Shown piece by piece: positions 51,112 to 53,198 of a DNA stretch of 64,000 bases. The DNA is from Actinomycetospora lemnae (lineage in GTDB: Bacteria; Actinomycetota; Actinomycetes; Mycobacteriales; Pseudonocardiaceae). The stretch is taken from contig NZ_JAQZAO010000001.1 in the NCBI RefSeq assembly GCF_028737315.1, positions 62,001 to 126,000 on the forward strand, given 5' to 3'. How positions within the stretch are numbered: the stretch's first letter is position 1; each line of letters opens with the position of its first letter. The notes beneath the pieces are model-generated. The model worked only from the letters and a program-made list of their open reading frames with translations. It made no database searches and was not told the origin of the DNA. The translations under genes and the position numbers were made by a program.

Positions 51112-51179
51112 GACCGCGCACCGTAGTGCCGCTGATCACCCTCTCGCCCGCGTCCCCCGGCCGTGTCGGGGGCGGTCGC

Positions 51180-51232
51180 TACAGTGCCGCTCCATGACGG
51201 ACACCAAGCGGAGCGGAGCTGGACCATCATGA
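51180..51232 (+). promoter_or_regulatory. Leaderless 12-codon ORF coupled to accD5
   Basis: -10 TACAGT (51180-51185), then 8 nt and an ATG at 51194 that opens a 12-codon frame, [12 protein letters not shown], whose TGA (51230-51232) overlaps the accD5 ATG as ATGA. The transcript would begin at this ATG, and accD5 would be reached by termination-reinitiation. GCGGAGCGGAGC inside could serve as a ribosome binding site. Confidence 0.6.
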
Positions 51233-52872
51233 CCGCCGCGACGGAGCCGTTGCCGCAGCCTGACGACGCTGCCGGGGAGCCCGACGTCCACACGTCGGCG
51301 GGCAAGCTCGCCGACTGGTACCGGCGCCAGGAGGACGTGGTCCACGCCGGCAGCGAGCGCGCCGTCGAGCGCCAGCACGCCAAGGGCCGCAAGACCGCCC
51401 GCGAGCGCATCGACCTGCTGCTCGACGAGGGCTCGTTCCTCGAGTTCGACGCGATGGCGCGCCACCGCTCCACCAACTTCGGCCTCGACGCCAACCGCCC
51501 GTACGGCGACGGGGTCGTCACCGGGCAGGGCACCGTGGACGGCCGCCCGGTGTGCGTCTTCTCCCAGGACGCCACGGTCTTCGGCGGCGCGCTCGGCGAG
51601 GTCTACGGCGAGAAGATCGTCAAGGTCATGGACGTGGCCATGAAGATCGGGTGCCCGGTCGTCGGCATCAACGACGGCGGCGGCGCGCGCATCCAGGAGG
51701 GCGTCGTCGCCCTCGGCCTCTACGGCGAGATCTTCCGGCGCAACGTGCACGCCTCGGGCGTCGTCCCGCAGATCTCGCTGGTCATGGGCCCGGCGGCCGG
51801 CGGCGCGGTGTACTCCCCCGCGCTCACCGACTTCACGGTCATGGTCGACGAGACGTCGTTCATGTTCATCACGGGCCCGGACGTCATCAAGACGGTCACG
51901 GGCGAGGACGTCGGCTTCGAGGAGCTCGGCGGCGCCCGCACCCACAACGCCACGTCCGGCAACGCCCACTACCTGGCCTCCGACGAGGACGACGCGATCT
52001 CGTTCGTCCAGGAGCTGCTGGGCTACCTGCCGTCGAACAACCTCACCGACCCGCCGCGCATTCCGGGCGAGGAGGAGAGCGGGTCGGTGCCCGACGGCAT
52101 CGGCGAGACCGACCTCGAGCTCGACACCCTCGTGCCCGACTCGCCCAACCAGCCGTACGACATCCGCGAGGCGATCACGAGGGTCGTCGACGACGGCGAC
52201 TTCCTGGAGATCCAGGCGCTGTACGCGGCCAACATCGTCACCGGCTACGGCCGGGTCGAGGGCCGGCCGGTGGGCATCGTCGCCAACCAGCCCACCCAGC
52301 TCGCCGGCTGCCTCGACATCGGGGCCAGCGAGAAGGCCGCGCGGTTCGTGCGCACGTGCGACACCTTCAACATCCCGGTGCTGACCTTCGTCGACGTGCC
52401 GGGATTCCTGCCGGGCACCGACCAGGAGTACAACGGCATCATCCGCCGCGGCGCGAAGCTGATCTACGCGTACGCCGAGGCGACGGTCCCGCTCGTCACG
52501 GTCATCTGCCGCAAGGCCTACGGCGGCGCCTACGACGTCATGGGCTCCAAGCACCTCGGGGCCGACGTCAACATCGCGTGGCCCACCGCGCAGATCGCCG
52601 TCACCGGGGCGTCCGGTGCCGTGAGCATCCTCTACCGCAAGGAGCTCAAGAAGGTCGAGGACGCCGGCGGCGACGTCGAGGCCCGGCGCGCGGAGCTGCA
52701 GCAGGAGTACGAGGACACCCTCGCCAACCCGTACGTGGCCGCCGAGCGGGGCTACGTCGACGCCGTCGTCCCGCCGTCGCACACCCGCGGCTACGTCGCC
52801 CGGGCGCTGCGGATGCTCGAGACCAAGCGCGAGACGCTGCCGCCGCGCAAGCACGGGAACGTGCCCCTGTGA
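51229..52872 (+). CDS. accD5: Acyl-CoA (propionyl-CoA) carboxylase beta subunit
   Basis: 547 aa carboxyltransferase, almost the length of mycobacterial AccD5. N-half: [60 protein letters not shown]-half: [38 protein letters not shown] and [13 protein letters not shown]. Produces methylmalonyl-CoA or malonyl-CoA with AccA3 biotin carboxylase. ATG 51229 follows a coupled mini-ORF; the stop TGA merges with the tandem 29-bp units. Confidence 0.96.
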
Positions 52873-52955
52873 GCGCAGCGAACGAGGAGGTGCGGCGGTG
52901 AGCGCAGCGAACGAGGAGGCGCGGCGGTGAGCGCAGCGAACGAGGAGGTGCGGCG
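52869..52955 (+). repeat. Three tandem 29-bp translational-coupling units between accD5 and accE
   Basis: Units 52869-52897, 52898-52926 and 52927-52955 differ by a single base (the second has C for T). Each begins with GTGA overlapping the previous stop and contains a full GAGGAGG site seven bases before the next GTG. Read from its GTG each is a complete [13 protein letters not shown] (or MSAANEEARR) then TGA. Thus accD5, three 10-codon ORFs and accE form a chain with four successive GTGA junctions. Confidence 0.9.
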
Positions 52956-53198
52956 GTGAGCGACGCACCGGACGACCAGGAGGCCCCGGCCCGCCCGCTC
53001 CTGCGCATCGTGCGCGGGGAGCCGGACGCCGCCGAGATCGCCGCGCTGACCGCCGTGCTCGCCGCCACCGGCGGCGGTGCTCCCGACGAGACCCCCGACC
53101 CGACACCGACGTCGGGCTGGGCGCGCCACGTCGACCTCGTGCGCGGCCCGGTCCACCCCGGACCGGGCGGCTGGCGGGCCTCCGCCCGACCGCGATGA
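52956..53198 (+). CDS. accE: Acyl-CoA carboxylase epsilon subunit
   Basis: 80 aa. Small subunit stabilising the AccA3-AccD5 complex in actinobacteria. Signatures RPLLRIVRGEPDAAEIAALT, then AVLAATGGG, a Thr/Pro linker and the conserved end GPGGWRASARPR. GTG at 52956 overlaps the third mini-ORF stop and has GAGGAGG seven bases upstream. Mycobacterial accE5 likewise follows accD5. Confidence 0.92.
   Translation: MSDAPDDQEAPARPLLRIVRGEPDAAEIAALTAVLAATGGGAPDETPDPTPTSGWARHVDLVRGPVHPGPGGWRASARPR

Follow-up and report, generated by a model that had tools for sequence, protein, structure and literature searches.

Tandem mini-ORFs with GTGA overlaps at the accD5-accE junction of Actinomycetospora: a minisatellite that may act as a translational relay

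Insertion of MIRUs at start/stop overlaps was reportedly described by Supply in 1997, in wording that gives the overlap as DTGA. In the section of a 2025 review cited here, MIRUs are presented as repeats that insert at start codons, carry an ORF coupled at -4 nt, and likely have little effect on the gene (PMC12548453). Their unit length class is given as 53 and 77 bp in the relevant part of a further source (PMC4213456). The MIRUs of senX3-regX3 resemble the locus studied here, as both are short tandem repeats of variable number between co-operonic genes, with an ORF coupled to the next gene at -4 nt (passages in PMC12548453 and PMC4213456). According to the portion used here of a study in E. 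coli and Haloferax, reinitiation in six gene pairs was almost eliminated by a gap of some 20 nt, and in two pairs the final 15 nt of the upstream gene were enough to support it; reports to the contrary, of scanning over long ranges, are mentioned in the introduction of that study (PMC10666635). Termination-reinitiation at -4 overlaps, as treated in the cited parts of two papers, shares with our locus a stop-start overlap that joins subunit genes of one complex (PMC6728339, PMC10666635). The accD5-accE junction differs in having four overlaps in series, by way of three 10-codon ORFs.

Bicistronic expression design with a short leader ORF is mentioned in the 2025 review (PMC12548453). In such designs the leader delivers ribosomes to an overlapping start, which is the likeness to the present array. 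The array, in contrast, is natural, intercistronic, and tandem. The accE5 gene of M. tuberculosis also varies, in what we take to be an N-terminal tandem repeat. This structural variation at an accE gene is listed as intragenic, and a chain of mini-ORFs is not described in the cited parts of the two sources (PMC12817950, PMC12663572). No published description of the Actinomycetospora repeats studied here was found in the open-access literature, among the matches listed.

Three tandem 29-nt units were read between accD5 and accE at 52869-52959 of the window, i.e., the 64,000-nt stretch of Actinomycetospora lemnae DNA analyzed here (Table 1). Units 1 and 3 are identical, and unit 2 differs from them at 52920 alone, where C replaces T and Val becomes Ala. 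Each unit is a 33-nt ORF with a 4-nt GTGA overlap at both ends. The four overlaps begin at 52869, 52898, 52927, and 52956, and the step between successive ORFs is -4 nt in 4/4 steps, the short distance expected of termination-reinitiation. The initial annotation had described three 29-nt units with a one-base difference, forming 10-codon ORFs joined by GTGA overlaps with GAGGAGG before each next start; its coordinates were exact to the base, the sequence agrees with its ORFs, and a coupled architecture with one Shine-Dalgarno (SD)-like site per unit is supported. The TRF score of 181 is the top of 93 tandem-repeat rows in the window. In the window, the GTG at 52956 is the sole ATG, GTG, or TTG lying in frame after the last stop and before the conserved core of accE. 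The real start of accD5 is probably the ATG at 51226, near the point where most relatives' matches begin (mostly at residues 18-24). Biotin-ligase and Maf genes lie near accD5/accE, and the named relatives Actinomycetospora straminea and A. callitridis are 98-99% identical in the final 200 accD5 residues. Since 29 is 2 mod 3, a whole-unit change in copy number automatically preserves both frame and overlap. An explanation is therefore needed for the first unit and for its having been kept, but not for every further copy.

Table 1. Features of the accD5-accE region (positions in the window)
Feature	Position	Strand	Details
accD5-like carboxyltransferase beta subunit	51163..52872	+	PF01039 Carboxyl_trans, E 1.2e-201; stop TGA 52870-52872
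Mini-ORF 1	52869..52901	+	overlaps accD5 stop by GTGA; anti-SD energy before start only -5.5 kcal/mol
GAGGAGG SD-like site, unit 1	52884..52890	+	-15.2 kcal/mol before ORF2 start
Mini-ORF 2 (MSAANEEARR)	52898..52930	+	sole base unlike units 1 and 3 at 52920
GAGGAGG SD-like site, unit 2	52913..52919	+	-11.6 kcal/mol before ORF3 start
Mini-ORF 3	52927..52959	+	stop overlaps accE start
GAGGAGG SD-like site before accE start (unit 3)	52942..52948	+	-15.2 kcal/mol
Tandem array, period 29, 3.2 copies	52869..52962	+	TRF score 181
accE-like acyl-CoA carboxylase epsilon subunit	52956..53198	+	PF13822 ACC_epsilon, E 2.7e-20, residues 14-73

The junction was read in 17/18 genomes of the genus. A carboxyltransferase match was present in 61/61 genomes, that of G004 only at the paralogue level, and G004 is the genome without an accD5 junction. 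The spacer is 0 nt in five genomes (G003, G007, G010, G011, and G012). One 38-nt unit is present in five (G001, G009, G013, G014, and G016), two 38-nt units in G015, two 29-nt units in G005 and G017, and three 29-nt units in G000, G002, and G008. The spacer of G006 measures 29+30+29 nt, and its middle unit, shifted in frame, continues through the third to close on the accE GTGA after 20 codons. In 17/17 junctions accD5 connects to the GTGA start of accE either by direct overlap or through a closed ORF chain, and the closed chain is kept in all 12 that bear units, the class label 'broken' on seven genus rows meaning just more than one unit. An extra in-frame accE start lies 6 or 12 nt upstream in 5/12 unit-bearing genomes (none in the window), so the annotated start in those five was our choice. 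The word GTGAGCGCAGCGAACG occurs 16 times in 6/18 genus genomes, always at this junction (control matches, 0), which exceeds chance; 15 of these occurrences correspond to units and the other to the start of accE in G006. A looser word of the 29-nt unit gave six more single sites elsewhere in five genomes. Tandem copies were thus found together with copy-number change between relatives, here between species with one genome per species, and the array is a minisatellite (VNTR) of varying copy number. Unit number, to which the initial annotation had given a possible tuning role, does differ between species, from 0 to 3 in the 17 junctions read. The assembly artefact that would have undone the same annotation is excluded, as six species carry 29-nt arrays with different unit sequences, and the 87-nt array would in addition fit in one short read.

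A tree of 4350 columns separated clade A (29-nt units) from clade B (38-nt units). The six unit-bearing species of clade A grouped together with weak support (83.5/69), and two zero-unit species were nested within clade B, so that loss of units is likely there. Copy number has turned over between sister species, with three units in G000 and two in G005, and three in G002 and two in G017. Differences per 29 nt averaged 0.58 between units within genomes vs 2.8 between genomes (the 30-nt unit of G006 omitted), and 3/15 between-genome unit pairs were at 1.2 or less, G005-G017 (0.5) and G002-G017 (0.7) being as low as within genomes. Turnover of the units themselves is likely from these distances, and it would not be uniform.

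The repeat in most clade-A genomes has the form CTGTGAGCG + [20 nt + CTGTGAGCG]n, the shared part in the window being GTGAGCG. The overlap sequence is repeated in the array, and therefore each unit holds a copy of the junction itself. The initial annotation had regarded the array as repeated duplication of the accE translation start. This holds for the overlap alone (GTGAGCG; CTGTGAGCG in most sister species), which is common to unit and junction; it fails for the remaining approximately 20 nt, which zero-unit genomes lack, and a unit-like accE start occurs in G006 alone. Insertion combined with duplication of the junction would fit better, and the 29-nt unit may have begun as an insertion. 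A dispersed origin of this unit was not found, a 20-mer with ≤2 mismatches occurring only at this locus in its own genome. Its best look-alike is one arm of a separate palindromic repeat (15/16 to the G005 unit), equalled by 0 of 2000 shuffles for G005, 5 for G000, and 82 for G006. A weaker look-alike is the CGCAGCGGAGCGGAG element, for which 17, 182, and 357 of 2000 shuffles were equally good. A second dispersed family was noted in G000, G005, G006, G010, and G017 (L158-L172). It is a REP-like imperfect palindrome of about 55 nt, CGGAGCGAACGGGGAGTTCG...CGTTCGCTCCGG, mostly with TAG inside, and several copies adjoin a tRNA-like stretch.

The 38-nt unit has as its core CGCAGCGGAGCGGAG, a dispersed repeat with 259 copies in 17/18 genomes (control matches, 2), in places tandem at 36 or 45 nt. 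The element is about 28 nt long, with variants that end in GCTCGACC, GCCGGACC, and GCTGCCGC (L138-L157, L298-L326). The 38-nt unit of G009 matches the dispersed form at 26/26 nt, and 0/2000 shuffles were as good. At the junction upstream of a CT_A_B (PF02626) carboxyltransferase gene, presumably a pxpB-pxpC-like junction, the element is present in G000 and absent in its sister G005; no Pfam match was found in the last 60 residues of the upstream gene. G000 has GTGACGATC at this place and then 35 inserted nt, the last four of which are a second GATC, and a 13-codon ORF leads from the upstream stop to the ATGA of the next gene, forming a 38-nt relay. G002 carries a different insertion at the same place, with 41-nt spacing, and its 14-codon relay is closed as well. 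As the sister of G002, G017, is empty, the two appear to be separate insertions. In the other 14 of 16 matched genomes the match was 35 nt shorter than the query span, as expected of empty sites. Five of these were aligned and have a direct GTGA or ATGA overlap, and nine of the 16 loci are classed as empty by match length only; G001 and G015 gave no full match. The junction between the biotin carrier and biotin carboxylase genes (accB-accC; PF00364/PF00289) was read in 15 genomes. The element lies just after GTGA as an in-frame extension in G000, G008, and G011; nine genomes are empty, and three have shorter unrelated inserts. The filled and empty sites at the CT_A_B junction show the dispersed element entering a GTGA overlap, where it makes a doubly coupled mini-ORF like those at accD5-accE.

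Genus-wide, 35 element copies (13.5% of the 259) lie ≤20 nt after a GTGA, most copies being elsewhere, within or between genes. These 35 form 13 relays, 21 in-frame extensions (first ORF of at least 60 codons or running off the stretch), and 1 neither. As background, the other 187 GTGA sites present in the retrieved stretches gave 16 relays, 110 extensions, and 61 neither (Fisher p 5e-5 for relay and 1.3e-4 for neither). Where the upstream ORF was open for 60 codons, the counts were 9, 19, and 1 of 29 vs 11, 55, and 26 of 92 (p 0.023 and 0.004), and relays remained at 10/32 when orthologous sites were counted once (p 0.001). The 'neither' outcome is disfavoured already because the element has no stops of its own. 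Element copies were also seen as N-terminal extensions of glmM-like and era-like genes. At three loci the element is in tandem right after GTGA and in frame, with a period of 39 nt (L302) or 36 nt (L309 and L317), and encodes repeated N-terminal peptides, e.g., GDAAERSST.

In comparison with MIRUs, a small ORF with overlaps of about 4 nt at both ends and a tandem repeat of variable copy number between genes are both found at accD5-accE. The unit length is different (29 or 38 nt vs 53/77 bp), as are the genus and the operon, and the array has up to three relays, each with one SD-like site, in a beta/epsilon carboxylase pair. The 29-nt unit is confined to one locus and so is not dispersed at many loci, whereas the core of the 38-nt unit is. 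Insertion at overlaps in the MIRU manner was found for the dispersed element, at the CT_A_B junction (GATC duplicated, empty sites) and at accB-accC. The array was not filed as a MIRU, because its unit is shorter and the 29-nt unit is not dispersed, MIRUs being compared by description. By analogy, it appears to share with them the principle of coupling-preserving insertion.

The same junction was surveyed in 94 loci of the family outside the genus, which we selected at no more than about four per genus from the listing (match in at least 158/160 genomes) plus 14 from the 61-genome set. Three were dropped, accE not being located, and among the remaining 91, accD5 and accE overlap directly in 43, a single ORF bridges them in 15 (from 10 genera), 10 are near or broken, and no start lies at the stop in 23. 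The frequency of bridging ORFs (15/25) vs pseudo-relays (8/23) was not clearly above chance (p 0.09), and 4/15 family relays have a second possible accE start that changes the label or lies nearer the core. Repeats with a period of at least 12 were found in the 0-120 bin after accD5 at 10/77 loci (two of them Actinomycetospora) vs a mean of 1.7 in the other 29 bins, the 77 being those of 80 loci with full flanks. The crude pattern behind the repeat leads missed the accE core in 34/94 loci. Pseudonocardia kunmingensis (L062) has a 33-nt in-frame tandem repeat of the accE start just after accD5 (3.3 copies), which gives four possible GTGA starts or a repeated N-terminus. Actinophytocola gossypii (L075) has a 22-nt repeat at the junction that resembles the accD5 3' end and forms one open bridging ORF, ending on GTGA in frame with accE. 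In L249 and L250 (genus g66) an in-frame repeat of the accE start is present at the junction, of 18 nt in L249 (ATGTCTGGAGAAGCCGCC) and less regular in L250.

We consider it probable that the units of this minisatellite serve as translational relays across the junction and maintain accD5-accE coupling. A short sequence would have entered the 4-nt overlap, which is the direct joint in zero-unit relatives, duplicated it, as GTGAGCG in the window and as CTGTGAGCG in most sister species, and then been amplified in tandem. After finishing accD5, a ribosome would initiate again on mini-ORF 1, terminate, and repeat this on each following ORF until it arrives at accE. Given a unit length of 2 mod 3 and an open frame, steps of -4 nt would replace an 87-nt gap. 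Each unit would place an SD-like site ahead of the next start and supply accE with the SD that is absent from the end of accD5, and the peptides would be by-products. Since some 20 nt of separation almost eliminated reinitiation in the gene pairs covered by the cited part of the earlier study (PMC10666635), inserting 87 nt would be expected to uncouple accE from accD5 if no ORFs bridged the distance. The favoured reading is that the relay keeps, and perhaps strengthens, the accD5-accE link; ribosomes would use the mini-ORFs, and the cell may benefit. Units are absent from 5/17 species, which counts against this reading, and where SD sites are strong, ribosomes might initiate directly at accE. 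Since coupling is automatic on whole-unit change, the support for selection is limited to about two independent origins at the junction.

A close rival is that the array is a coupling-neutral passenger, a slippage-prone minisatellite without benefit that is tolerated since accE would still be expressed after any whole-unit change, either through the relay or from the SD in the last unit. We regard this as quite possible, though somewhat short of probable. It is not exclusive of the relay, nor are the likelihoods given here exclusive of one another; it denies only the benefit, and the relay may still be the mechanism. Unit numbers of 0-3 among close species and the likely losses in clade B are in its favor, and other genera, too, tend to have repeats at the 5' end of accE. 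The peptide is unconstrained: among seven distinct 29-nt units, 66 nonsynonymous vs 4 synonymous summed pairwise differences gave a pN/pS of 5.0, and seven 38-nt units gave 1.22 (155 vs 43). A functional decapeptide was rejected at pN/pS 5.0, a value from few sites with low power, and a useful product is unlikely from these ratios. Across the seven 38-nt units, parsimony placed 32 changes on 34 inner columns (approximately 0.94 per column), none on the 8 GTGA columns, and no change in length. The constancy of the overlap bases and of the 38-nt length is modest evidence for constraint, because the neighbouring genes hold most overlap bases and all seven units stayed stop-free in 68% of neutral simulations. 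The GTGA columns are mostly held by the accD5 stop and accE start, and the one free position, the last A, would be unchanged by chance with a probability of 0.39. The passenger explanation has against it that the chain is broken in 0/12 unit-bearing junctions, where even the G006 indel (30-nt unit) still ends on the next GTGA, and that element insertions at GTGA give a relay or extension more often than background sites do.

The unit might instead give accE its own ribosome-binding site at an SD-less overlap, allowing independent initiation, with the mini-ORFs incidental; this seems rather unlikely to us. The anti-SD energy at the start overlapping accD5 is weak in 17/17 genomes (-4.3 to -5.5 kcal/mol). 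Before accE it is -9.5 kcal/mol or stronger in 10/12 genomes with units and -4.3 to -5.5 in 5/5 without, with means of -10.4 and -4.8 kcal/mol, respectively, and the clade-A SDs mostly exceed shuffles (0 to 0.095 of 400 as strong). A single unit would be enough for this purpose, however, and frame and overlap need not be kept. The unit SDs are also weak in G015, which has practically none, and in G013, and those of clade B are no better than shuffles (0.105 to 0.86 as strong). That unit number sets the AccE:AccD5 ratio, with a fraction of ribosomes lost or gained per step as in a contingency locus, we hold to be doubtful. Unit number differs between sister species, compared in sequence at one genome per species. 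According to the parts of the sources cited, M. smegmatis requires both genes and transcribes them together (PMC4064979), and promoter tandem repeats of M. tuberculosis are reported to be phase-variable (PMC12817950). An RNA or promoter element in place of translation is very improbable. The MIRUs of senX3-regX3 are said to drive senX3-independent regX3 expression in the section cited (PMC4213456), yet searches of the array region found no sigma-70-like promoter (the type searched), no Rfam family, and no special RNA fold (folding z +1.07), and these candidates were rejected.

The principle of the accD5-accE array is already known from MIRUs, and what is new is this variant, which comes with good experimental material. 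It offers a natural series of 0, 1, 2, and 3 coupled mini-ORFs at one gene pair in close species, in which serial termination-reinitiation and its cost per step can be tested. The filled and empty sites are at hand for the study of repeat entry at gene joints. The junction illustrates how repeat DNA could enter the joint of two subunit genes with their link kept, outside mycobacteria. More tentatively, it is possible, though on balance we doubt it, that Actinomycetospora has a MIRU-like system of its own, in which dispersed repeats that are stop-free in the forward frames insert into GTGA overlaps and yield a mini-ORF relay or an in-frame extension, the accD5-accE relay having been amplified to three steps and adjusting subunit supply. 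If so, operon coupling would be a niche to which repeats have adapted more than once.
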